From positions 62,001 to 126,000 of the forward strand of contig JBFLXB010000001.1 in assembly GCA_040757335.1 (NCBI GenBank): a DNA stretch of 64,000 nt. Reading direction: 5' to 3'. Shown here piece by piece: positions 24,675-61,787 of this stretch; position 1 is the first letter of the stretch, and each line of letters opens with the position of its first letter. The notes below the pieces were generated by a model, which made no database searches, was not told the origin of the DNA, and saw nothing but the letters and a program-made list of their open reading frames with translations. The translations under genes were made by a program, and so were the position numbers. The DNA comes from Nitrospirota bacterium (GTDB lineage Bacteria > Nitrospirota > Nitrospiria > 2-01-FULL-66-17).

Positions 24675-24800
24675 GAGCCTGTCCACGAAAGGCCATCTGC
24701 GGCGTTGTCGGTCGGCCTTGCGTGCTCACGTACAACCCAGTACGCTCCGCGCGCAAGGTCCTCCCTCCGCCTTGCATCTGGCCTTCCCTGAACAGGCTCC
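24675..24800. repeat. Palindromic dispersed element, copy B
   Basis: GAGCCTGTCC starts right after the hydD TAG (24672-24674), and AACAGGCTCC ends two bases before the ATG of the large-subunit gene. The same core (CACGTACAACCCAGTACGC) and inverted ends occur as in the other three copies. It therefore fills the whole hydD-hydA spacer. Confidence 0.8.
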
Positions 24801-50240: not shown

Positions 50241-50645
50241 ATGCCCGAGAAGACCGTGGTAACCGAGAAGCGGAGGGTGTTGGTGGTGGGGAGCGCATCG
50301 TTGTTCGGGTGTGCGGTGGGTGGCTTGCTGGAAAGCAGGGGCGACGGGTTCGACGTGACATCGGTGAAGACGGTGGAGGCGGCGATCGAAACCGCGCCGA
50401 AGGTTCGGCCCGACGTGATCGTCTTCTGCCTGGACCGTGACGACGGGCGCAACGGCGACGCGCTGAATCGGTTACGGCTGATGGAATCCTTCCCCGCACG
50501 AATCATTCGATGCACCCTCGAAAGCAACCAACTGACAATCTACGACACGAAACGGATCACCGATGCCACGGCGGAGGACCTCCTTGCGGCGGTCACCCGC
50601 GGGAGCGACGAACCGGTCGACAACCGGAAGGGGGAGACACTATGA
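50241..50645 (+). CDS. Degenerate receiver-like protein coupled to the multicopper oxidase
   Basis: This encodes 134 residues from ATG 50241. RRVLVVGSASLFGCAVGGLL and RPDVIVFCLDRDDGRNGDAL follow the alternating beta-alpha order of response-regulator receivers. The acidic pair after the first strand is replaced by Gly-Ser, and no conserved lysine is evident, so phosphorylation as in CheY is doubtful. The C-terminus is charged (TRGSDEPVDNRKGETL) and there is no DNA-binding domain. The stop overlaps the ATG of the multicopper oxidase, so amounts of both proteins are linked. It is cytoplasmic, whereas the oxidase is exported. Confidence 0.6.
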   Translation: MPEKTVVTEKRRVLVVGSASLFGCAVGGLLESRGDGFDVTSVKTVEAAIETAPKVRPDVIVFCLDRDDGRNGDALNRLRLMESFPARIIRCTLESNQLTIYDTKRITDATAEDLLAAVTRGSDEPVDNRKGETL

Positions 50646-53600
50646 GTGCAAAGTGGTGGAAGGTGTTGGTGGGGCTCGCGGCGGGCGCCTGGTTATGGTC
50701 GGGCGGTCCGACCGCGGGATGGGCGGGTGAAGACCACGGATCGCATGGATCGGGAGGCGCCGAGATCGTGGTCGCGGACGCGCAGGAATTGCCCGCCTGG
50801 CAGCAGAAGTTCAAGGAACAGCTCGAACGCGAAGACGCGGCCGAGGGTCGGAACGGCACCCGCGACCAGTTGGAAGCGGCCATGAAGAAGCTCATGGCCG
50901 AAATCGCCAAGGGCACCGGCGACCACGCGTCCCACGTCTCGCAAGGCCCCTACAGCGATGCGGCTATGGCTCAGCAGATGGACAGGAGCTACTTTTTGGG
51001 TCCGGCCGCAGCAGGGGAGAGCGTAACGGCCGGAGGACGCTGCCCCAAGAACGTTCCGGTCAAGGAGTACGACGTTTCGGCGATCAACGTGGAGATCACG
51101 CTGAACCAGTGGCTGGATTACCACCCCGGGTACATGTACGTGTTGACCGAGAATGTCCCGAAGGTTCGGGCTGAAGAGAAAGCCAACGCGGAGGCCCGCA
51201 AGGCGGCGGGTTACAACCCGGGTGCCGTGAGCACCGGCCTCCAGACCGACATAATCCAGCCGATCGTGCTGCGGGGCAACCAAGGCGACTGCGTGGTGAT
51301 CACGCTGAAGAATGAACTCGATGGTGAAGACGTCGGACTCCATATTCACGGCTCCAGCATGATCATCAAGGCGACCGGGCTGGCGGCCACCGCCGCCAAC
51401 TCCGACGCCACGGTCCAGCCGGGAAAGAGTCAGACCTTCGAGTGGTATATCCGGCCTACCGAGCAGGAGGGCTCGCATATGCTCCACAGCCACGTCGGCC
51501 GGGAGCAGGCGAGCCTGGGGATGATCGGAGCGTTCATCGTCGAGCCCATGGGGTCACGCTATCTGGATCCGATCACGGGGAAAGAATCGAAGAGCGGCTG
51601 GCAGATGATGATCGAAGATCCCAATGCCCCCGATTTCCGGGAGTACGCGATCTTCTACCACGAAATCGGCGACGAATCCTTCCGCCCGCTGAACCGCCAG
51701 GGCGAAACGATTCCGCAGCGCGATCCGAACACCGACGCGTACCGGCCCTCGGCTCGCGCGCTCAACTATCGCAGCGAGCCGTTCGGCATCAATAACCTTG
51801 CGGTTCAGGAGAAGTATTTCCACTTCGAGGACGAGTCGATGTCGTACAGCTCCTACACCTTCGGCGATGTGCCGACGCCCATCCCGAGGGGATACCTGGG
51901 CGACCCGAACAAGTGGCGGCTGATCCATGGAGGCGGCGAGGTGTTCCACTCCCACCACCCTCACGGCGGGTCGATCCGCTGGCTGCGTCAGCCCAAGGCC
52001 GATGGGAAGGCGGACTTCCTGATGACGGCGGCTCAGAACGGCCCGGTGAAGTATCCGGAGGTCCGGACCACGTCCGACCGCGTCGATGTGGAAGTGATCG
52101 GTCCTTCGGAGGTGTTGGACCTTCAGACCGAGTGCGGGTGGGGTCTTTGCCAACAGGTGGCGGCGGACTATTTGTTCCACTGCCACGTCGCGCACCATTA
52201 CGTCGCGGGGATGTGGTCGTACGGGCGCGGCTACAACACGCTCCAGACCGGAAACTATCCATTCGGAAGCACCGACGTCATGCCGCCGCTGCAGGAACTG
52301 CCGGATCGCAAGGGGCGGATGAAGCCGGCGGTCACGTCGGATCAGTTGGTCGGCAAGACCATGGACTGGTACGACAAGAAATGGAACATCACCGCGAACA
52401 AGACCGACTTCTCCAAGCCCATTCCGGACGTGTCGATCAAGGACTGGGTCAAGATGTTGCTCCCGCCGGCTGGCCAGCCGGGCCACACCGCGGACGAGAA
52501 GGGCCAGATCGTCGCGTATGATGCGACGGTGTGGGACTGGACCTGGGACGGCAACCAAGCATTGGGGGAGGCTGAGGAAACCGGGAAGTTCGCCAGCCCC
52601 AAGTACAAGTCGCCCATGCCTGGGAAGCGGCCGCCGATTCTCTTCGACGCCAAGACAGGGAAACTTGCGTACCCGCACTTCAAGCCGCACTTCGGCAAAC
52701 GGGTGCCATTTGCCCGACACCACGGACCGGCTCCCTGGTTAGAGCCCGTCCACGTGGACAAAGCCACCGGATCGGTTGGGGACGAGCCGGGCGGTCTGGG
52801 CGTGGCCGGTGGAGAGACCAACCAGCCGGCTCGTCCGGGTGAACAAGGGAAATGGAGCCTGTGCCCGGAGAACGCGGGGCGAAAGCAGTACACGATCCAC
52901 TTCATCGAAACGCCGATCACCATGAACCAGGCCATCGGCAAACAGAAGGCGGTGGTGGATCAGCACGGGACGATTTATGTCCTGCACGAGGAGGAGAAGG
53001 CAGTTCGGGCCAACAGCGACCTCGCACGGCCGCTCGTCTATCGCGCCAACGTGTATGACTGCGTGGACGTGATCCTCAAGAGCGAGTGGGAGGACAACAA
53101 CACGACGAACTTCCAGATGTCGAAGATCAATATCCATCCCCACTTCATGCAATTCGACAACAACGCGAGCGACGGTGTGATCACGGGTTTTGCGTACGAG
53201 CAATCGGTGCGCCCCTTCACCCAGATGAAGAAGGCCGAGCACAAAGGGCTGCCGGTTCCGATGAACGCCGTCCTCGCGGAGAATGTGAAGGCGGGGGCCA
53301 CCAGCGTCAAAATCGAGATGCCGGAAGGGGCCACCAAGTTCCACGCCGGGACCGACATCATGATCGGGATGCACGAGGTGAAGACCTCTGAAGTCCGGTG
53401 GATCAAGGAGATCAAAGGCGACACGCTGGTCTTCGCCGAACCCTTGAAACATGCGCACAAGAAGGGGGAGGTTGCATCGGTCGAGTACGTCCGGTACCGG
53501 TACTGGGTGGATGCCGACTTGGGGACCGTGTTCTGGCACGACCACGCCCTCGGCGGAACCACCTGGCCGCACGGAGCCGTGGGGGGGCTCATCGTCGAGC

Positions 53601-55546
53601 CGGTGGGCGCCACGTATCATGACCCGAAGACCGGCAAAGAGATCCGGAGCGGTCCCATCGCCGATATTCATTCGACCGACCCGATCGGCTACGGCGTGAA
53701 CGGCAGTTTCCGGGAGATGGTGCAGTATCTGAACGACACGGTGCCGTATACCGCGCAGGTGGTGACCGCGGGCAATCCGCCGGGACAGACGATCCAGGCG
53801 GCCATCGACGCGGGTCAGGCATTGTTCTTCCAGATGCCGTATGACCTGGACCTGGTGTCGGTCCCCATGCTCAACGGCGGGACGCACACCACGGGCGGTG
53901 GGTTCTTCTTCAAGGCCGAGTCGATCGCGAAGCGGCTCAAGAACAACCCGGATGCGTCGAGGGTCTTTTCCACCAAGACGCACGGGATCGACCCGGGGAC
54001 GCCGCTGTTGCGGGCCTACCTGGGGGACACCGTGGTGTTTCGTCTGATGCACGTGATGATGAACGAGTCGCACACCTGGCATCTGGCGGGCCACGCATTC
54101 AGGACCGAGCGGTACGCCGAGAAGTCGGACTTCAAGAACGCGTGGCACGTCGGGATCGCGGAACGGTACGATCTGGTCACAAAGGCCGGGGGGCCGCAGC
54201 AGATGGCCGGCGACTACCTGCACTTCGACGGCCGTCCATCCCATCTGTCGGAAGGCAGTTGGGGCATCTTCCGCGTGCTCGACAAAGAAGTGCCGGATCT
54301 GAAGAAGCTGCCGGGGCGCGAGGAGATTCCGGCCTCCGCGAACTCGGTGTGCCCGTCGGATGCACCGGTCAAGACTTTCAACGTGATCGCGGCGGATCGG
54401 GCCTTGAAGTACAACACCAACGCGCCGGACGTGATCGAGGTGGATTTTGACCGCGTGTTGCAGGTCGCAAACCCGCAGGGCAAGATCTACATGCTCGAAG
54501 GGGAGAAAACGAAGGTGGCGGAGGGCGGTGCTCAGCCCATGCCGCTGACCCTGCACGTCAATGTAGGGGATTGCGTCAAGGTGAACCTGAAGAACGAGAT
54601 GAAGGCCAGCCGGGCGTCGTTCAGCGCCGACATGCTGGCATTCGATCCCAAGGAGTCCCAAGGCGTCAATGTGGGCAACAACCCCGGGGACCAGACCGTG
54701 GGCCCGGGCCAGAGCCGGACCTACACGTACTATGCGCCGCCGCAGTACGGGGAGACCGCTGCGCTGGTGTGGGACTGGGGGAACTTCATCAACAACGTCA
54801 GGGATGGGCTGTTCGGGGCCATCATCGTCGGGCCCAAGGGCTCCAAGTATCGGGATCCCAAGACCGGCGAGGACGTCTCGATGAAGAACGCCTGGCAGGT
54901 TGACGTGATCGTGGATCGGTCGATACCGGCGAATGCCAACCGGTCCGACTTCCGGGATGCCTCGCTCTTCTTCCAAGACGAGGACAACATCATCGGAACC
55001 GCGTTCATGCCGTACATTCAGCAGATCGCGGGACTGACCGGGGTGAACTACCGCGCCGAGCCCTGGACCTATCGGGAGGAGAACGGGTGCGAGCTGGGCA
55101 ACATGTTCACGCCGTGTGTGGCCGCGCAGTCCGATTTGGCCACGCCGACGATCATGGCGCACGCCGGCGACCCGGTTCGGATCCACGTGTTCGGCGCGTT
55201 CAACGAGCAGAACCAGGTGTTCAGTCTCGAAGGGCACGAGTGGCCCCTCAAGCCCAACATGGCAGGGGCCGACCTGATGAGTTCGAGCGAGTTCGGCTCG
55301 TCTCAAAATCTGGACGTGCTCCTGGTCGATGGGGCCGGCGGGCCGTTCCGCCTGCCGGGGGATTACTTGTGGCAAAATCATCGGATGCCCTATACCCAGG
55401 CCGGACAGTGGGGGTATCTGCGGGTACTGCCCGCAGGAGACCGGCGCGTGCTGCCGTTGAACAGCGGCGGACCCGGCGGTCGGACCGCGGAGCTGCCGCA
55501 GTCAGGTGATGCCGTGTCCGTCTCGCTGCTGGGGACGGGGAAGTAA
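50642..55546 (+). CDS. Giant exported multicopper oxidase with three cupredoxin-pair units
   Basis: This encodes 1,634 residues from ATG 50642, with AAGGGGGAG upstream and a signal peptide ending near PTAGWAGED (about 28). Unit 1 (about 190-540) has a complete ligand set: HIH (234/236), HSH (282/284), HSHHPH (436-441) and HCHVAHHYVAGM (513-524), the HCHxxxHxxxxM blue-copper motif. Unit 2 (about 800-1220) keeps HPH (832/834), HDH (966/968) and HTWHLAGH (1144-1151) but lacks the HCH cysteine. Unit 3 (about 1290-1630) has almost none, with WDW in place of an HxH. Each unit contains a DPKTGKE-like linker. Its size exceeds six-domain Mn or Fe oxidases. The substrate is unknown. Confidence 0.88.
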   Translation: MSAKWWKVLVGLAAGAWLWSGGPTAGWAGEDHGSHGSGGAEIVVADAQELPAWQQKFKEQLEREDAAEGRNGTRDQLEAAMKKLMAEIAKGTGDHASHVSQGPYSDAAMAQQMDRSYFLGPAAAGESVTAGGRCPKNVPVKEYDVSAINVEITLNQWLDYHPGYMYVLTENVPKVRAEEKANAEARKAAGYNPGAVSTGLQTDIIQPIVLRGNQGDCVVITLKNELDGEDVGLHIHGSSMIIKATGLAATAANSDATVQPGKSQTFEWYIRPTEQEGSHMLHSHVGREQASLGMIGAFIVEPMGSRYLDPITGKESKSGWQMMIEDPNAPDFREYAIFYHEIGDESFRPLNRQGETIPQRDPNTDAYRPSARALNYRSEPFGINNLAVQEKYFHFEDESMSYSSYTFGDVPTPIPRGYLGDPNKWRLIHGGGEVFHSHHPHGGSIRWLRQPKADGKADFLMTAAQNGPVKYPEVRTTSDRVDVEVIGPSEVLDLQTECGWGLCQQVAADYLFHCHVAHHYVAGMWSYGRGYNTLQTGNYPFGSTDVMPPLQELPDRKGRMKPAVTSDQLVGKTMDWYDKKWNITANKTDFSKPIPDVSIKDWVKMLLPPAGQPGHTADEKGQIVAYDATVWDWTWDGNQALGEAEETGKFASPKYKSPMPGKRPPILFDAKTGKLAYPHFKPHFGKRVPFARHHGPAPWLEPVHVDKATGSVGDEPGGLGVAGGETNQPARPGEQGKWSLCPENAGRKQYTIHFIETPITMNQAIGKQKAVVDQHGTIYVLHEEEKAVRANSDLARPLVYRANVYDCVDVILKSEWEDNNTTNFQMSKINIHPHFMQFDNNASDGVITGFAYEQSVRPFTQMKKAEHKGLPVPMNAVLAENVKAGATSVKIEMPEGATKFHAGTDIMIGMHEVKTSEVRWIKEIKGDTLVFAEPLKHAHKKGEVASVEYVRYRYWVDADLGTVFWHDHALGGTTWPHGAVGGLIVEPVGATYHDPKTGKEIRSGPIADIHSTDPIGYGVNGSFREMVQYLNDTVPYTAQVVTAGNPPGQTIQAAIDAGQALFFQMPYDLDLVSVPMLNGGTHTTGGGFFFKAESIAKRLKNNPDASRVFSTKTHGIDPGTPLLRAYLGDTVVFRLMHVMMNESHTWHLAGHAFRTERYAEKSDFKNAWHVGIAERYDLVTKAGGPQQMAGDYLHFDGRPSHLSEGSWGIFRVLDKEVPDLKKLPGREEIPASANSVCPSDAPVKTFNVIAADRALKYNTNAPDVIEVDFDRVLQVANPQGKIYMLEGEKTKVAEGGAQPMPLTLHVNVGDCVKVNLKNEMKASRASFSADMLAFDPKESQGVNVGNNPGDQTVGPGQSRTYTYYAPPQYGETAALVWDWGNFINNVRDGLFGAIIVGPKGSKYRDPKTGEDVSMKNAWQVDVIVDRSIPANANRSDFRDASLFFQDEDNIIGTAFMPYIQQIAGLTGVNYRAEPWTYREENGCELGNMFTPCVAAQSDLATPTIMAHAGDPVRIHVFGAFNEQNQVFSLEGHEWPLKPNMAGADLMSSSEFGSSQNLDVLLVDGAGGPFRLPGDYLWQNHRMPYTQAGQWGYLRVLPAGDRRVLPLNSGGPGGRTAELPQSGDAVSVSLLGTGK

Positions 55547-55566
55547 GAGGTCTCTGAGTTGAAGGA

Positions 55567-55607
55567 GGTCAAGGGGCGGGGGATTGCAGTTCTCCTGCCC
55601 CTTGACC
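55567..55607. terminator. Long-stem hairpin after the multicopper oxidase gene
   Basis: GGTCAAGGGGC (55567-55577) pairs perfectly with GCCCCTTGACC (55597-55607), giving an 11-bp stem. Further GGGGGA/TCTCCT pairing occurs inside the loop. Only ATTGTT follows, so it is a weak intrinsic terminator or a stability and attenuation element between the oxidase and the first cupredoxin gene. Confidence 0.6.
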
Positions 55608-55627
55608 ATTGTTCAGGAAGGAGAACG

Positions 55628-56563
55628 ATGTCTCGTCTTGTCGTGGCGGTCGCCGTCGGGATCGTTTTGGCGACGGGTGGACCGTCGCCGGTCTCCGCAG
55701 AATCGGTCTATGAAGAAATCGCCGTGAAGAACGGCGGAACCATCAGCGGGAAGATCACCCTGAAGGGGCCGGTCCCTGACCCGCGAGTGTTCCCGTTGGT
55801 GCTCTATCCCTTTGGGCCGTTCTGCAAGAAAATCTCGGACGGCAAAGGCCACATCCTGGTCGATGAGTTCATCGTGTCGCCGGACCGGGGGATGCAGGAC
55901 ACGATCGTGGCGGTGCAGCAGGTCAAGCGGGGAAAACCGTTTCCTCTGATCAAACAGGAACTGGAAGCGGTGGACTGCATGTTCCATCCCGCCGAGACCG
56001 CGGAGGACGAGCTGTTTGCGATCGATGCCCAGGGCAAGCTGCACCACGAACATCCCTTGGTCATGGTCCTGAGAAATCACCAACCGATCTGGGTGGTCAA
56101 CCGCGATCCGATCATTCACAACGGGCAAGTCTTCCAAAATGAGAAGGGCAACATCATTCTCAACTTTCCGCTCCCGATCGCCGAGGAGCCGCGCGGCGGC
56201 ATGCTCCACTTCGACGACGGGAAGCGCATTTCACAAATGATTTGCGGGATGCACGAATTCATGCAGGCGTGGGGGTTTGTGGTGGACAATCCCTACTACG
56301 CGAGAACCAAGAAAGACGGGAAGTTCGCGATCGACAATCTTCCACCCGGCACGTATCGTGTGGCGGCGTGGCATCCGCATCTCCCGATCGTCGAACAAGA
56401 CATCACGGTGCCGGCCAACGGCACGGCATCGTTCAACGTGGAATTCGACGGCGCGCAGGTCGTGCGTCCCGCGTACGAGAGCCAGGAACGATTCCGGATC
56501 GGACCCGAGGCGCTTCCTCATCAACATCTCGAAGAGTGTAGCCCGCCGTACTGCGAGGACTAG
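55628..56563 (+). CDS. Exported cupredoxin/carboxypeptidase-regulatory-like protein 1
   Basis: This encodes 311 residues. ATG 55628 has AAGGAGA upstream. A signal peptide ends near PVSAES (about 24). The cupredoxin-like part has His164 (PIIHNGQV) and Cys206-x2-His209-x2-Met212 (MICGMHEFMQAWG). This is the short amicyanin-type type 1 copper loop. It is followed by a carboxypeptidase-regulatory-like beta domain (KFAIDNLPPGTYRVAAWHPH). An insert with HHEHP near residue 140 and the His/Cys-rich tail PHQHLEECSPPYCED are special to this copy. It probably takes or gives electrons to the upstream oxidase. Repeat copy D follows its TAG. Confidence 0.78.
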   Translation: MSRLVVAVAVGIVLATGGPSPVSAESVYEEIAVKNGGTISGKITLKGPVPDPRVFPLVLYPFGPFCKKISDGKGHILVDEFIVSPDRGMQDTIVAVQQVKRGKPFPLIKQELEAVDCMFHPAETAEDELFAIDAQGKLHHEHPLVMVLRNHQPIWVVNRDPIIHNGQVFQNEKGNIILNFPLPIAEEPRGGMLHFDDGKRISQMICGMHEFMQAWGFVVDNPYYARTKKDGKFAIDNLPPGTYRVAAWHPHLPIVEQDITVPANGTASFNVEFDGAQVVRPAYESQERFRIGPEALPHQHLEECSPPYCED

Positions 56564-56688
56564 GAGCCTGTCCATGAGCGGCCATCTGCGGCGTTGTCAG
56601 TTGCCTTTGCGTGCTCACGTACGACCCAGTACGCTCCGCGCGCAAAGGCTTCTTCCGCCTTGCATCTGGCCACTCCTGAACAGGCTCC
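56564..56688. repeat. Palindromic dispersed element, copy D
   Basis: GAGCCTGTCC begins directly after TAG 56561-56563 of cupredoxin 1, and AACAGGCTCC ends 17 bases before the ATG of cupredoxin 2. Core CACGTACGACCCAGTACGC. It fills the spacer between the two paralogous genes. Confidence 0.8.
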
Positions 56689-56705
56689 GACATCGAAATA
56701 CTTGG

Positions 56706-57590
56706 ATGCCTTCACGGCGTATGCCTTCGCTGGGGCTTATCGCGTGGGTGATCGTTGCTGGAGTTTGTGGCGTTCTTTTCGGAGTGAGAGCCGTGGGTTG
56801 GGCGTATGAAGAGGTCACGGTGACCTCGGGGGGCACGTTGAGGGGGAAGGTTTCATTGGCCGGAGCGGTTCCGCCCAGCCGGATTTTCCACATGGTGTTC
56901 TCCCCGAATATCACATTCTGTACCAGGATTTCCGATGGCAAAGGCAACCGGTTGCTCAAGGAGTTCGTGGTCGCTCAAGACGGCGGATTCCAGAATGTGG
57001 TCGTGGCCGTGGTGGGGGTGGAAAAGGGCAAACGATTCGATTACACGCCGGAGATCAGCCTTGAAAACTGCCGTGTCGGCCCGTTCGTCACGCCCGTTCG
57101 CAACCACCACCCCGTTGTGATCGTGAACAAAGACCCGGTGGTACACGATGTCCAGGCCTATACGATCAAGGATCCGTATGCGTTTGGAATGTTCAATAAG
57201 CCCATGCTTCCGGAGAGTACGGCCTCAAAAAAGATCGTCTTCAGAAAGGACCACTATCTCTTCAAGACCCAGTGCGGGGTGCACGACTTCATGCAGTCGT
57301 GGGGCATGGCCGTGGGCAACCCCTATTTTGCGGTCACCGGCCCGGACGGCACGTTTACGATTTCGGATCTCCCGCCGGGAACCTATGATGTCGTGGCCTG
57401 GCATCCCCATATGCGGGTGAGAGCGAAACAGGTCACGGTTGCGGCCAACGGCGAAGCGGACCTGAGCTTTGAGTTCGACTCGTCCGAAGTGGACATTCCG
57501 TTGCACGATCTGCAGACCGGCTACCGCCTCCAACCCGCGCTGGATCTCATCCCGCTGGAGCCGCCTTCGGTCGAGCTCCAGGGACCCTAA
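56706..57590 (+). CDS. Exported cupredoxin/carboxypeptidase-regulatory-like protein 2
   Basis: This encodes 294 residues from ATG 56706; ATG 56721 is also possible. The signal sequence is SLGLIAWVIVAGVCGVLFGV, with a cleavage site near GWAYE. Ligands His147 (VVHDVQA) and Cys190-x2-His193-x2-Met196 (TQCGVHDFMQSWG) are present, followed by TFTISDLPPGTYDVVAWHPH. It is a paralogue of the proteins at 55628 and 58192. It lacks the His/Cys tail of copy 1 and has a Phe/Met-rich stretch (YAFGMFNKPMLPES) before the copper loop. Ribosome binding is unclear because repeat D lies just upstream. Confidence 0.76.
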   Translation: MPSRRMPSLGLIAWVIVAGVCGVLFGVRAVGWAYEEVTVTSGGTLRGKVSLAGAVPPSRIFHMVFSPNITFCTRISDGKGNRLLKEFVVAQDGGFQNVVVAVVGVEKGKRFDYTPEISLENCRVGPFVTPVRNHHPVVIVNKDPVVHDVQAYTIKDPYAFGMFNKPMLPESTASKKIVFRKDHYLFKTQCGVHDFMQSWGMAVGNPYFAVTGPDGTFTISDLPPGTYDVVAWHPHMRVRAKQVTVAANGEADLSFEFDSSEVDIPLHDLQTGYRLQPALDLIPLEPPSVELQGP

Positions 57591-57637
57591 AGCACCCATC
57601 GGGCGCTGTCGTCGGCGAATCGTGAACGGGTAGGGCA

Positions 57638-57667
57638 TTGACCAAGAGGCCGCGGGCTGGGTATTCT
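57638..57667 (+). promoter_or_regulatory. Possible sigma70 promoter of the MarR-cupredoxin 3 operon
   Basis: TTGACC (57638-57643) and TATTCT (57662-57667) are separated by 18 bases, about 45 bases before the MarR start. It fits the consensus moderately well. Confidence 0.5.
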
Positions 57668-57675
57668 ATGGGCGA

Positions 57676-57697
57676 GATATTTTGAACACCAAACATC
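57676..57697. promoter_or_regulatory. Candidate MarR operator
   Basis: GATATTTTG-AACAC-CAAACATC is an imperfect palindrome located between the proposed -10 box and the MarR start codon. That position and the AT-rich dyad suit autorepression by a MarR dimer. Confidence 0.4.
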
Positions 57698-57710
57698 GGC
57701 GCTTCTTCGG

Positions 57711-58187
57711 ATGATCGGCATGGCCCAGAAACGAGACATTGCCGACATCATGCAGTCCTTGCGGCGGATCTTTAAGGCGATCCAGCAGTACTCCGAAGAC
57801 GTGTTTAAGGAGTTCGGGGTGACCGGCCCGCAGCTCTGGGCCTTGCGGACGATCTACACGCAGGGCCCGCTCTCGATGGGCGAGTTGAGCCGGAGCATGT
57901 ACCTGCACATCAGTACGGCCTCGGGCGTCGTGGATCGGTTGGAGCGCAGGGGGTACGTGGAGCGCAACCGAGAGGACTCGGACCGGCGCGTGGTCAAGAT
58001 CAGCCTCACGTCCGCGGGGAAACGGCTGGTGCAACGGGGTCCGGAGGCGGCTCAAGGGAAGTTGCTGCATGGGCTTGAAAGTCTGTCGTCGGCTGAGGTC
58101 CGAGTCATCCGTTCATCGCTGGAACGCGTGGTTCGGTTGATGGAGATTCAGGATATGAGAGCAACCTTCTTTTTTAGCGAGGAGTAA
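57711..58187 (+). CDS. MarR-family transcriptional regulator
   Basis: This encodes 158 residues from ATG 57711; ATG 57720 is equally possible. A winged helix is clear: LWALRTIYTQGPLSMGELSR, then MYLHISTASGVVDRLERRGYVERNR and DSDRRVVKISLTSAGKRLV, the MarR wing with its DxRxxxxxLT motif. N- and C-terminal helices would form the dimer. It is four bases from the cupredoxin 3 gene and separated from it by GAGGAG, so they are one transcript. I infer that it controls part of the copper region. The inducer is unknown; no clear metal or thiol sensor pattern is seen. Confidence 0.88.
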   Translation: MIGMAQKRDIADIMQSLRRIFKAIQQYSEDVFKEFGVTGPQLWALRTIYTQGPLSMGELSRSMYLHISTASGVVDRLERRGYVERNREDSDRRVVKISLTSAGKRLVQRGPEAAQGKLLHGLESLSSAEVRVIRSSLERVVRLMEIQDMRATFFFSEE

Positions 58188-58191
58188 TGGC

Positions 58192-59028
58192 ATGACGAAC
58201 GGTGCGGTGAATCGTGCGGTTACGGTGACGGTGGGTGTCGCGCTACTGGCGACCCTCGGGTTCGGTGAGGCGCCACCGGCCCTTGCCTACGAGGAAGTCC
58301 AGGTTCAGAACGCGGGAACGTTGACGGGGAAGGCATGGTTGGACGGACCGATTCCTGAGCCGCGCGTTTTTCCGGTTGCGCTCTATCCCTTCGGGCCGTT
58401 CTGCAACAAGAATGAGCGCATTGCGGACGGCAAGGGAAACATCCTGGTCCAAGAGTTCGAAGTAGGCGCCGAGCATGGATTAAAGGACGTGGTGGTGGCG
58501 GTGCAGAGGGTGAAGCGAGGGAAGCCGTTCCCTCCCATCGTGGCTGAAATCGTGTCGCGAGATTGCGAGTTCATCCCGTTTGTGAGCGTCGTCCGGAACC
58601 ACGGACAGTTCAGGATGACGAACGAGGACCCCGTCATTCACAATGCGCAACTCTACCAAAGCGAGAAGGGGAATCTGCGGTTGACGGTGCCGAATCCGCC
58701 GAATTCGGCGGGGATGTTCCCCATCGAGTTCGAAAGGAAATACCGAATCTACCAAATGATCTGCGGAATGCACGAGTTCATGCAGACCTGGGGTTACGCG
58801 GTGGACAATCCGTACTATGCGCTCACGGACGAGAACGGCGCATTTACGATCGACGGCCTGCCTCCGGGCACCTACACCGTCACGGCGTGGCGGCCGCACT
58901 TTCCCCCAATGGAACGACGGGTGACCATCGCGTCCTCGGGGACGGAGCGCATCGAGTTTTCGTTCGATGCAGCGCTCGTGAAGCGACCCCTGTATGAAAC
59001 GCAGGAGCGCTTCCGGATTCAGCGTTGA
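58192..59028 (+). CDS. Exported cupredoxin/carboxypeptidase-regulatory-like protein 3
   Basis: This encodes 278 residues with GAGGAG upstream of ATG 58192. A signal peptide ends near PALAYE (about 32). His150 (VIHNAQL) and Cys191-x2-His194-x2-Met197 (MICGMHEFMQTWG) form the predicted blue-copper site. FTIDGLPPGTYTVTAWRPHF begins the second domain. FPVALYPFGPFCNKNERIAD is shared with copy 1, so copies 1 and 3 are the closest pair. It lacks the inserted HHEHP loop and the His/Cys tail. A MarR gene is directly upstream. Confidence 0.78.
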   Translation: MTNGAVNRAVTVTVGVALLATLGFGEAPPALAYEEVQVQNAGTLTGKAWLDGPIPEPRVFPVALYPFGPFCNKNERIADGKGNILVQEFEVGAEHGLKDVVVAVQRVKRGKPFPPIVAEIVSRDCEFIPFVSVVRNHGQFRMTNEDPVIHNAQLYQSEKGNLRLTVPNPPNSAGMFPIEFERKYRIYQMICGMHEFMQTWGYAVDNPYYALTDENGAFTIDGLPPGTYTVTAWRPHFPPMERRVTIASSGTERIEFSFDAALVKRPLYETQERFRIQR

Positions 59029-59078
59029 CGCTTGACCTGGGCTCGGCGGCGGGGAATCTGCTGCCCGACGGCGTCTGA

Positions 59079-60095
59079 TTACGAGCCGGGGAGCTTTTCC
59101 GCGTCCCTCATGAGTCCGGCGACGAGGGACGCCGCCTCGCGCTCGAGAACCGCTTCAGTCGCGGACGCGGTCCCAATGCCTTGGATCTGTTTGCGTAGAG
59201 CATCCAACCGGCGTTCATGCTCGGCCGCCCTGGCCTTTCCAAGCACTTCCGCGATCGCGTCTCGGAGGCCGGACTCGTTGTACAGTCTCGACTGAACACT
59301 CATCACTCTCGACGTTGCCGCGGTGATGCTCCCGTTCTTCCAATGACCGATGGCGCGATCCAGTTCGGTGCGGACCTGTTCCACCACTGAGATCCAGTCC
59401 CGATCCGTGGTTTCGGTGAGATCGGTTCCAGCCGGAGCCTTCGCTGTGAACCGGAGATCAACGACCTGTCTTCCCATGTCCAAGTCCATATCCACCGCTC
59501 CTCGATCCCGTTCCTCGGCGGTCAGTCGAGGATGCCAGGCTTCGAGTCGGTAATGGCCGGGCGGCACGTTCGGGATTTCGAACCGTCCGAGCTTGTCAGC
59601 CACGGCGAAATAGGGCGACGGGGCGACGATGATCAGTCCCCGCATGCTCTGGTGGGTGCGGCACCGGATGGGCACGGCCCCGGGGTTCTTCAGGGTCACC
59701 TCCTTGACCGTGCCGGGAAGATGCGCGCCGGTGTCAAAGCGATTTTCAGCGGCACGTGAGTGGATGTTGTGGATCTCGTCGTCATGATTCTCGAATCGAA
59801 TCGTCGCCCCTGCGGGAACGACGAGGAAATCCGGCTCGAACCGGAGCTTCTCCTGCCGAATCGTGTGTGGAGCGGACGAGGGGGCAAAGGAGAGGCCAGG
59901 CGGCGGCTGAAGGAACACCACGGCGCCGTCGGCCGGTTCCGAATTGAACAGGACGCGGCCGGTCACCCCATTGCCGGTCGTTCCACCGGCAGTGTGGGGG
60001 AAGAACGAGATGGACAACTGGAGGACCGCGAGACAGGCCGCAAGGTCGCGACACGGCTTCGCGACCTGCCACCGATCCGTTCCGGAATTCCTCAC
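59079..60095 (-). CDS. Exported cupredoxin/carboxypeptidase-regulatory-like protein 4 (divergent)
   Basis: This encodes 338 residues. GTG 60095 is the only start that leaves the signal sequence (LAACLAVLQLSISFFPHTAG) intact. There is an N-terminal copper domain: FENHDDEIHNIHS (His104, His109) and IRCRTHQSM (Cys145-x2-His148-x2-Met151). The second domain carries GRFEIPNVPPGHYRLEAWHP. The C-terminal 110 residues are a helical region (RTELDRAIGHWKNGSI and AEHERRLDALRKQIQGIG) absent from copies 1-3. No Shine-Dalgarno is present; a promoter ends seven bases upstream, so translation may be leaderless. It converges with copy 3. Confidence 0.75.
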   Translation of the reverse strand: MRNSGTDRWQVAKPCRDLAACLAVLQLSISFFPHTAGGTTGNGVTGRVLFNSEPADGAVVFLQPPPGLSFAPSSAPHTIRQEKLRFEPDFLVVPAGATIRFENHDDEIHNIHSRAAENRFDTGAHLPGTVKEVTLKNPGAVPIRCRTHQSMRGLIIVAPSPYFAVADKLGRFEIPNVPPGHYRLEAWHPRLTAEERDRGAVDMDLDMGRQVVDLRFTAKAPAGTDLTETTDRDWISVVEQVRTELDRAIGHWKNGSITAATSRVMSVQSRLYNESGLRDAIAEVLGKARAAEHERRLDALRKQIQGIGTASATEAVLEREAASLVAGLMRDAEKLPGS

Positions 60096-60101
60096 GCCGC
60101 G

Positions 60102-60131
60102 ATCATAACAAGACGCGCGCGAGAGCGACAA
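60102..60131 (-). promoter_or_regulatory. Promoter for leaderless cupredoxin 4 transcript
   Basis: On the minus strand TTGTCG (60131-60126) and TATGAT (60107-60102) lie 18 bases apart. Only six bases (CGCGGC) separate the -10 box from the GTG at 60095, so the transcript would begin at or next to the start codon. Confidence 0.6.
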
Positions 60132-60154
60132 GATGCTGGTTGTGTTTGAGACGG

Positions 60155-60176
60155 CGCGGATGATAACGTATCCGCG
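60155..60176. promoter_or_regulatory. Inverted repeat upstream of TPR gene
   Basis: CGCGGAT (60155-60161) and ATCCGCG (60170-60176) form a perfect 7-bp dyad with an 8-base gap, between the two divergent genes and 22 bases before the GTG of the TPR gene. It could be an operator or a leader hairpin. Confidence 0.35.
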
Positions 60177-60198
60177 TCTTGGGAAGGAGTGAACCCCC

Positions 60199-61206
60199 GT
60201 GTCGACCACGAATGTGTTGAGGGCATTGGTTGCGCTGACCATGGTGTTGTGTGTGTCGGGTGTGTCGGCCGGAGCGACGTCGGAGGAGGTGGCTCAGGCC
60301 TACTTCGACGAAGGAAAGGAACTCAACAAGCAACGACGTTTCGACGAGGCGTTGGCGAAATTCACCCTGGCTGTTCAGGCGAGCCCCGAAACCCACAGAT
60401 ATCATCAAGCGCTCTTCATGACGTACATGGCGTTGCGCCGCGGCCTGGCGGCAATCGACTTCTACAAGCAGATGGCTCGCGAGCACCCCGACAGCCCGAC
60501 CGTTCGCTACTGGCTGGGGCGGCTCTACCTGCAGAGCCAGGCGCTCGACGACGCGGTGCGCGAATTCCAAACCGCCGGCAGGCTGGCGCCCAACGATGAA
60601 CATGCCTGGATCTCCTTAGGGCACACCTACATTCGCCAGGGGAAAGACGCGGAAGCGATGGCTGCGTATCAACGAGCCAATAAGCTGTCGCCGAACATCG
60701 CCGTGGTTCACGCCGGCCTGGGGAAGCTGTATTTGAAGCGCGGCGACTACCCGAAGGCGCAGCGCGAGCTTGAGGAGGCGTTGCGGCTTGACGCGGCGCT
60801 CACCGAAGCGCGGTTCGATCTCAGCCTGATCTACGAGAAGCAGGGCGAGACCATCAAAGCGGTCAAAGAATGGCAGCGGATCCTCGAAGACGATCCCAAC
60901 GAGACCTCGGCTCGAGAGCGCCTGGCAAGGACATTTTTCGAAAAGCAACTCTATGAAGACGCCGTGCGGGAGTACTCCACGCTGTCGCAGGTCCGCCAAG
61001 CTTCCCCCGAGGTGTTCCTTGCGCTGGGCGAGGCCCAGGTCATGTTGGCCACCTCCCTCACCGACGCCGCGGAAAAGAGTCAACTGACGAATTTGGCGAT
61101 CGAGAATTTTCAACGAACACTGGAACTCGATCCCGGGAATGCGCAGGCCCGGAAATACCTCGATCTCTTGCGACCGACGGATGCGCCGGCCCAGGTCCCG
61201 CAATGA
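60199..61206 (+). CDS. Exported tetratricopeptide-repeat protein
   Basis: This encodes 335 residues from GTG 60199, with GGAAGGAG upstream. A signal peptide (LRALVALTMVLCVSGVSAGA) ends near residue 25. About seven TPR units follow, with the usual A-x3-Y/F-x8-A-x3-L/F pattern, for example AHISLGHTYIRQGKDAEAM-like and EARFDLSLIYEKQGETIKAV. TPR proteins assemble complexes. Placement beside the cupredoxin genes suggests a periplasmic scaffold for the copper system, which is inference. The stop overlaps the next ATG. Confidence 0.82.
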   Translation: MSTTNVLRALVALTMVLCVSGVSAGATSEEVAQAYFDEGKELNKQRRFDEALAKFTLAVQASPETHRYHQALFMTYMALRRGLAAIDFYKQMAREHPDSPTVRYWLGRLYLQSQALDDAVREFQTAGRLAPNDEHAWISLGHTYIRQGKDAEAMAAYQRANKLSPNIAVVHAGLGKLYLKRGDYPKAQRELEEALRLDAALTEARFDLSLIYEKQGETIKAVKEWQRILEDDPNETSARERLARTFFEKQLYEDAVREYSTLSQVRQASPEVFLALGEAQVMLATSLTDAAEKSQLTNLAIENFQRTLELDPGNAQARKYLDLLRPTDAPAQVPQ

Positions 61207-61787
61207 CGCGGTTTGGTCGCTATGCCGTTGGAACCGGACTCGGTGCGATCGTCCTGGCGGCCGTTGTGTCGCTGCTGTCCGCGAGCAGCCTGCGGGCCGA
61301 CGTGGTCTACGATTGTCAAGCCGAGGAGAATCGAGGCAAACCCACGACGATCGAGATTGTCCTTTCCCAGAAGTGGCGAGAACAGGCGGATGAGATCAAG
61401 CGCGCGTTGGTGTCGGACGCGGATAGTGTAAAGGTCCGGGTCAGGTTTTACCCCTTGATGGACCCGCCCCGCAATATCGGCATCGGGAAGTGCGTTCCCG
61501 CCGATGTGGCGCGCCGGGCGATCCAAGAGGCGATCAAGTACTCCGGAACCATCGACCAACTGATCCGCCAGGACATTCTTCCGCACCACTGGATCAAGAT
61601 CGGCTCCACTGATACGGCCGAGTTGGCCTGGATGCCGGTTCCGCCCGAGGATCTCAGCCGCCTGACCGCCCCGAATCTATCCACCGATCAATTTCAGGAG
61701 CTCTACCGAAGTCTTGCGGCACCGAAAGAGCGGCGATTGCCCTTTGGGATGGGCAGTCAGCCGATTCAACCATCGCCCGGGCCATGA
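61203..61787 (+). CDS. Exported protein of unknown function
   Basis: This encodes 194 residues overlapping the TPR gene by ATGA. A signal sequence (GTGLGAIVLAAVVSLLSASS) ends near LRAD. VVYDCQAEENRGKPTTIEIV begins the mature part, and a second cysteine is in IGIGKCVPADVARRAIQEAI, so one disulfide is possible. The tail is Pro-rich (MGSQPIQPSPGP). No family was recognised. It is probably periplasmic and coupled to the TPR protein. Confidence 0.65.
   Translation: MTRFGRYAVGTGLGAIVLAAVVSLLSASSLRADVVYDCQAEENRGKPTTIEIVLSQKWREQADEIKRALVSDADSVKVRVRFYPLMDPPRNIGIGKCVPADVARRAIQEAIKYSGTIDQLIRQDILPHHWIKIGSTDTAELAWMPVPPEDLSRLTAPNLSTDQFQELYRSLAAPKERRLPFGMGSQPIQPSPGP

Follow-up and report, generated by a model that had tools for sequence, protein, structure and literature searches.

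Does the gene cluster at positions 50241-61787 of the window (the whole 64,000 nt of DNA analysed) represent a new periplasmic copper redox system, and if so, what might such a system do? The cluster consists of a receiver-like gene, a gene for a multicopper oxidase (MCO), four cupredoxin genes, a MarR gene, and genes for an exported TPR protein and another exported protein, all of which had been listed, and correctly placed, by the initial annotation:

50241-50645, + strand: degenerate receiver-like protein (134 aa; weak NarL/NarP receiver matches)
50642-55546, + strand: exported MnxG-like MCO (1,634 aa; PDB 9bxa MnxG, E 5e-100; Pfam Cu-oxidase_3 and Cu-oxidase_2)
51947-51964, + strand: MCO domain 2 motif HSHHPH (T1 His436; trinuclear His439, His441; invariant 50/50)
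52178-52213, + strand: MCO domain 2 motif HCHVAHHYVAGM (T1 Cys514, His519, Met524; trinuclear His513, His515; invariant 50/50)
53135-53143, + strand: MCO domain 3 motif HPH (trinuclear His832, His834; invariant 50/50; HIH here in MnxG)
53537-53545, + strand: MCO domain 3 motif HDH (trinuclear His966, His968; invariant 50/50; HDH here in MnxG)
55628-56563, + strand: cupA, exported amicyanin-loop cupredoxin with CarboxypepD_reg domain (CGMHEFM loop 56243-56263; His 56117)
56721-57590, + strand: cupB, exported amicyanin-loop cupredoxin of the same family as cupA (CGVHDFM loop 57273-57293)
57711-58187, + strand: MarR-family regulator (Pfam MarR, E 2e-17)
58192-59028, + strand: cupC, exported amicyanin-loop cupredoxin (CGMHEFM loop 58762-58782)
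59079-60095 (open frame to 60242), - strand: cupD, divergent exported cupredoxin (CRTHQSM; Pfam Copper-bind 2.6e-5, Cupredoxin_1 1.9e-5; cupredoxin family profile E 7e-18)
60199-61206, + strand: exported TPR protein (Pfam TPR)
61203-61787, + strand: exported 194-aa protein (homologues at 10 MCO loci)

The receiver-like ORF and the MCO gene share 4 bp (ATGA) at the start of the latter, and cupC begins 4 bp past the MarR stop. Whilst cupA, cupB and cupC lie on the same strand as MCO, cupD is on the opposite one, divergent from the TPR gene, and is therefore outside the transcript of the other cupredoxins. Its start is probably the GTG at 60095, which would give a protein of about 338 aa, not 387. 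Export was called by eye from signal-like N-termini. Pfam and NCBIfam searches returned no match for the 194-aa exported protein, and a promoter/terminator scan of the cluster yielded nothing above chance.

The window derives from a 3.56 Mb genome (G000), 99 % complete, of an uncultured Nitrospirota lineage. Two further genomes belong to the same family: G001, which over the parts compared is identical to MAG RIFCSPHIGHO2_01_FULL_66_17, and G002, which is identical to MAG JACQCD (NC_groundwater_959); Ca. Manganitrophus is a relative, but from a different family. Genes for 2-oxoacid:ferredoxin oxidoreductase are present in the window too and would be consistent with the reverse TCA cycle that PMC9040806 reports in relatives of this lineage. 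Neither Fe/Mn SOD (PF02777) nor catalase (PF00199) was found in this genome, that of a presumed aerobe.

With regard to the oxidase, the one strong relative of solved structure is MnxG from the Mnx complex of Bacillus (PDB 9bxa). Sequence alignments to this structure reveal a shared multi-domain cupredoxin architecture and an MnxG-like domain order, with the trinuclear site between domains 2 and 3 (motifs HxxHxH and HCH, then HxH and HDH); the counterparts in MnxG, in the same layout, are HVFHYH, HCH, HIH and HDH. Allotting the ligands by standard MCO motif spacing gives a T1 site of His436, Cys514, His519 and Met524, and a trinuclear site of His439, 441, 513, 515, 832, 834, 966 and 968. All 12 are invariant in 50 of 50 full-length homologues, as befits a member of the MCOs, and the HIH of domain 1 is variable (kept in 40/50 and 38/50). 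Because the ligand motifs of domains 2 and 3 are invariant, the trinuclear site is expected at the interface of these domains, and since the full T1 and trinuclear set is retained, the enzyme should, as far as its sequence tells, reduce O2. An AlphaFold model of residues 125-1240 (pLDDT 52) is too poor for site geometry. The similarity to MnxG is, however, partial: MnxG has Ala opposite the T1 His519, if the alignment is right, and an insert of approximately 75 residues distinguishes the two in domain 3. The partners also differ, being cupredoxins here, with MnxE/F unrecognised among the neighbours using Pfam and NCBIfam, libraries that may have no models for them. A score of 92 bits against an equivalog cut-off of 3100 (NCBIfam NF041487) indicates that this is not an MnxG equivalog. 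Membership of the PcoA/CopA or CueO type is likewise not borne out, with 25 bits against a cut-off of 479 for the CopA/PcoA family (TIGR01480), and 1,634 aa against a three-domain size.

All four cupredoxins possess a CxxHxxM loop and an upstream His. Across the family, 24 of 24 sequences retain all of the T1 ligands, namely the upstream His plus the Cys, His and Met from the loop, and the loop motif is present in 87 of 91 frames, the remainder being fragments. The AlphaFold model of cupA (pLDDT 86) matches amicyanin, purple cupredoxin and plastocyanin in fold searches, and this fold, combined with the His-Cys-His-Met ligand set, identifies a blue (type 1) cupredoxin. A second beta domain, which the initial annotation had described, proves to be a CarboxypepD_reg/fn3_3 domain. 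The same annotation spoke of four amicyanin-loop cupredoxins, which is accurate for the loop, carried by all four, but less so for cupD as a member of the set, given its divergent transcription and only distant relationship. Amicyanin shares its loop and fold with cupA, but the latter has an extra N-terminal beta region and a C-terminal CarboxypepD_reg domain, and identity is about 10 %. Thus cupA, at 311 aa and with these extra domains, is not an amicyanin in the sense of a single-domain partner of methylamine dehydrogenase, and no mau (methylamine dehydrogenase) genes were seen among the neighbours examined.

The pairing of oxidase and cupredoxins extends well beyond the window. Of 164 genomes sampled from the class (Nitrospiria), about 163 encode homologues of the MCO, whatever their NXR status; this count relies on the genome list being ordered by kinship. 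There are usually two copies. Outside the class, only weak matches turned up (E 6e-16 or worse), in 9 of the phylum's remaining genomes. Of the 48 MCO genes that are full-length and have enough downstream sequence, 41 are followed by CxxHxxM cupredoxins on the same strand within 5 kb, and 1 has such a gene upstream. An accident of one genome is ruled out by this count: the gene order recurs across the bacterial class far beyond chance, and the core unit is MCO plus cupredoxin. The initial annotation had stated that its idea of a system would fail if homologues of the oxidase were widespread without cupredoxins and the genes were not co-expressed; on the first count the idea survives, as the homologues are both widespread and so accompanied. 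The window's genome has three MCO loci and encodes 9 cupredoxins of the family; 7 of these are found at two of the loci, no more than 5 kb from an MCO (rough binomial 2e-12, inflated by tandem duplication). Amongst the 7 MCO genes without downstream cupredoxins, those at L009, L068 and L094 are the first of a tandem MCO pair, with an MCO and two cupredoxins following, whilst four loci have no cupredoxins at all (L065, in the window's own genome, L071, L074 and L095). In an MCO tree, the window's oxidase groups with those of Manganitrophus, apart from two sets of paralogues in family f2; the tested genomes of f2 and f3, presumably Nitrospira-like, mostly have NxrA-type genes. As a separate observation, the upstream tandem copies at L009:3147-8039 and L068:338-5269 (Ca. 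Manganitrophus GAC4 and its relative G183) are divergent (approximately 54 % identical, on a long branch), and G157 (L066, L067) has partial MCO matches of similar identity that lie downstream.

The accessory genes do not share this constancy. The MarR, TPR and receiver genes, which had been counted as parts of the system, are lineage-specific extras, confined to near relatives or scattered loci, and the receiver and MarR were rejected as core parts for this reason. Receiver homologues are found upstream of MCO solely in near relatives (L004, L005, L008, L013, L022 and L030); by inspection the protein appears to be without an acidic pocket, so it is probably not phosphorylatable. Homologues of MarR are present at the same place in L018 (80 % identical) and near a cupredoxin in L108 (59 %), and the TPR protein, recurrent but not constant, is seen at 6 of the loci studied. 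Homologues of the 194-aa exported protein, present at 10 MCO loci, are often on the opposite strand, adjoining cupredoxins. Other neighbours recur as well: a cluster of regulators that includes sigma-54 activators at 21 loci, exported FGE-sulfatase proteins at 15 and a HEAT-repeat protein at 14. The FGE-sulfatase (formylglycine-generating-enzyme-like) proteins adjoin MCO-cupredoxin loci, including L076, L088, L089 and L064, and also a bd-like oxidase.

More can be learned from the places in which family members meet respiratory genes. In two f3 genomes, G253 and G321 (L102, L103), an MCO-cupredoxin pair leads directly into genes for NxrA, a response regulator and an NxrB-like iron-sulfur protein that share its strand. 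No such cluster exists around the window's MCO, as an NxrA-type gene was not found in its genome (best approximately 62 bits, against approximately 200 in nitrite-oxidiser genomes). The order in G253 and G321 agrees with the NXR cluster described in 2013 for Nitrospina gracilis and Ca. Nitrospira defluvii, where an MnxG-like MCO was noted as periplasmic and clustered with NXR, cupredoxin-like proteins and a bd-like oxidase (PMC3578206); that enzyme is placed in the present MCO family by inference from its description, not by alignment, and the MCO and cupredoxins are not treated there as one unit. Elsewhere in the window's genome, an orphan cupredoxin (CDQHNYM; contig C3, L105:7721-15363) is followed by genes for a pair of exported FGE-sulfatase-like proteins, a cytochrome bd-like oxidase and a cytochrome c protein, which together likely form a terminal-oxidase cluster. 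In three other genomes a cupredoxin precedes membrane ion-pump subunit genes (Proton_antipo_M and NADHdh, checked in one). Such orphan contexts point to electron transfer, and, together with the invariant T1 ligands and the family members in an NXR operon, they lend support to the extracytoplasmic electron-transfer role first suggested for this locus. The cupredoxins might instead load copper into the MCO during maturation, and the tight linkage of their genes to that of an enzyme with a predicted requirement for four coppers, immediately upstream, is what one would then anticipate. We nevertheless judge this very unlikely, as a full T1 ligand set and a strictly conserved amicyanin loop are typical of electron carriers, and as the family also appears beside NxrA, bd-like oxidase and ion-pump genes, in several cases away from any MCO.

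The best reading, whose observed parts are the gene linkage, ligand conservation, class-wide distribution and presence of an MCO-cupredoxin pair in an NXR gene cluster, is that of a class-conserved periplasmic O2-reducing MCO which forms a redox module with dedicated blue-copper carriers; we consider it about equally likely to be right or wrong. The electron exchange between cupredoxins and MCO, its direction and the primary donor are what we infer. The module would comprise an MnxG-like six-domain MCO that holds a single T1 copper and a single complete trinuclear site, with the genes for one to three dedicated carriers, each a cupredoxin with a CarboxypepD_reg domain, immediately downstream of its own. 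A periplasmic donor would reduce the cupredoxins one electron at a time, these would pass electrons to the T1 copper of the MCO, and the trinuclear site would convert O2 to water without proton pumping. In this way, the MCO might serve as a periplasmic electron outlet, or as a redox/oxygen guard, alongside the principal high-potential respiratory chain. NXR would feed that chain in nitrite oxidisers, and in Manganitrophus-like lineages, including that of the window, the donor would be a different one, perhaps Mn(II) or Fe(II). Several points run counter to this. A soluble, non-energy-conserving MCO beside NXR would be a waste of electrons if it were not restricted to certain conditions, an MCO and cupredoxin by an apparent RND pump (L115) suit metal handling, and the four MCO loci without cupredoxins do not follow the pattern.

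That apparent pump bears on a further possibility, namely metal or oxidative-stress defence, in which periplasmic Cu(I) would be oxidised to Cu(II), or superoxide-quenching Mn(III) made, with the cupredoxins buffering copper. At L115:2413-16001 (G112), a third MCO (52 % identical), a cupredoxin and a homologue of the 194-aa protein lie beside what appears by inspection to be an RND metal-efflux operon. A role in Mn(III)/ROS defence has been proposed for the Nitrospira/Nitrospina homologue (PMC3578206), and the window's genome, as noted, yielded neither SOD nor catalase. Several MCO-bearing genomes of the class have both, however, meaning that the MCO is no replacement for them, and because of these relatives the ROS idea fits the window's genome, but not the class as a whole. 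The low CopA/PcoA score is also unfavourable, as are the full T1 sites of the cupredoxins and their occurrence with respiratory genes, and we therefore regard a defensive role as doubtful.

The remaining alternative is a Mn(II) oxidase that acts outside the cytoplasm, with electrons travelling straight to O2 or, for lithotrophy, via cupredoxins to bd-like terminal oxidases. It was suggested by the nearest relative of solved structure, the Mn(II) oxidase MnxG, and by the MCO matches themselves: all 27 that are named come from Nitrospirota, several of them Manganitrophaceae, and the named relatives (73-87 % identical) include Ca. Manganitrophus GAC4, Manganitrophaceae and Troglogloeales. Specificity for Mn was first considered because of the named matches, and dropped once the MCO was found in nearly every genome of the class. 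In Ca. Manganitrophaceae genomes, close homologues (76-80 % identical) are followed by the same cupredoxins as in the window, and GAC4 has in addition its divergent tandem copy. "Two novel MCOs" were reported in this family in 2022 by Yu et al., who favour Cyc2/PCC_1 instead, and who state that Mn lithotrophy through an MCO would require a periplasmic electron carrier (PMC9040806). Their paper makes no mention of cupredoxins, and the window's genome is from a family other than theirs. In the window's genome, one of the cupredoxins precedes the bd-like oxidase cluster. Set against this, the same MCO is present throughout genomes with NxrA-type genes, and is thus not specific to Mn oxidisers, whilst a complete and invariant trinuclear site implies that the enzyme itself should pass the electrons on to O2. 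A Mn(II) oxidase is accordingly unlikely in our estimation, and lithotrophy through the MCO is made less likely by the fully kept O2 site and by the same unit recurring across genomes with NXR. That the MCO-cupredoxin unit is the missing periplasmic link of Mn lithotrophy, oxidising Mn(II)/Mn(III) and sending part of the electrons through cupredoxins to bd-like terminal oxidases, strikes us as decidedly improbable; if true, it would mean that a multicopper oxidase conserves energy.

As to novelty, the oxidase cannot be called new, having already been recorded as MnxG-like in Nitrospira/Nitrospina (PMC3578206) and noted in Manganitrophaceae (PMC9040806). Of the new system initially claimed, this part falls away, whilst the arrival of the oxidase as a unit with cupredoxins (41/48 genes) is new; the open-access papers searched contain no description of the pair as a class-wide unit. 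The new point is hence the conserved unit, not the oxidase itself. For the periplasmic electron carrier still sought in Nitrospiria, both in nitrite oxidisers and in Mn(II)-growing Manganitrophus, these cupredoxins offer a testable candidate. As dedicated, strictly conserved blue-copper genes accompany the MCO nearly class-wide, one can ask directly whether their products donate to or accept from it, a question that is addressable in cultivable organisms.

A final observation concerns the space between cupA and cupB, where a palindromic hairpin repeat of approximately 125 nt is found (56563-56688; MFE -74.6 kcal/mol, z -8.2). Further copies are present in the window at 24725 and 48160, and one adjoins the second MCO locus (C6:32967). 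The 20-nt core of the repeat occurs at 59 places in the window's genome, compared to 0 for the control, and the whole looks like a REP/MITE-type element.
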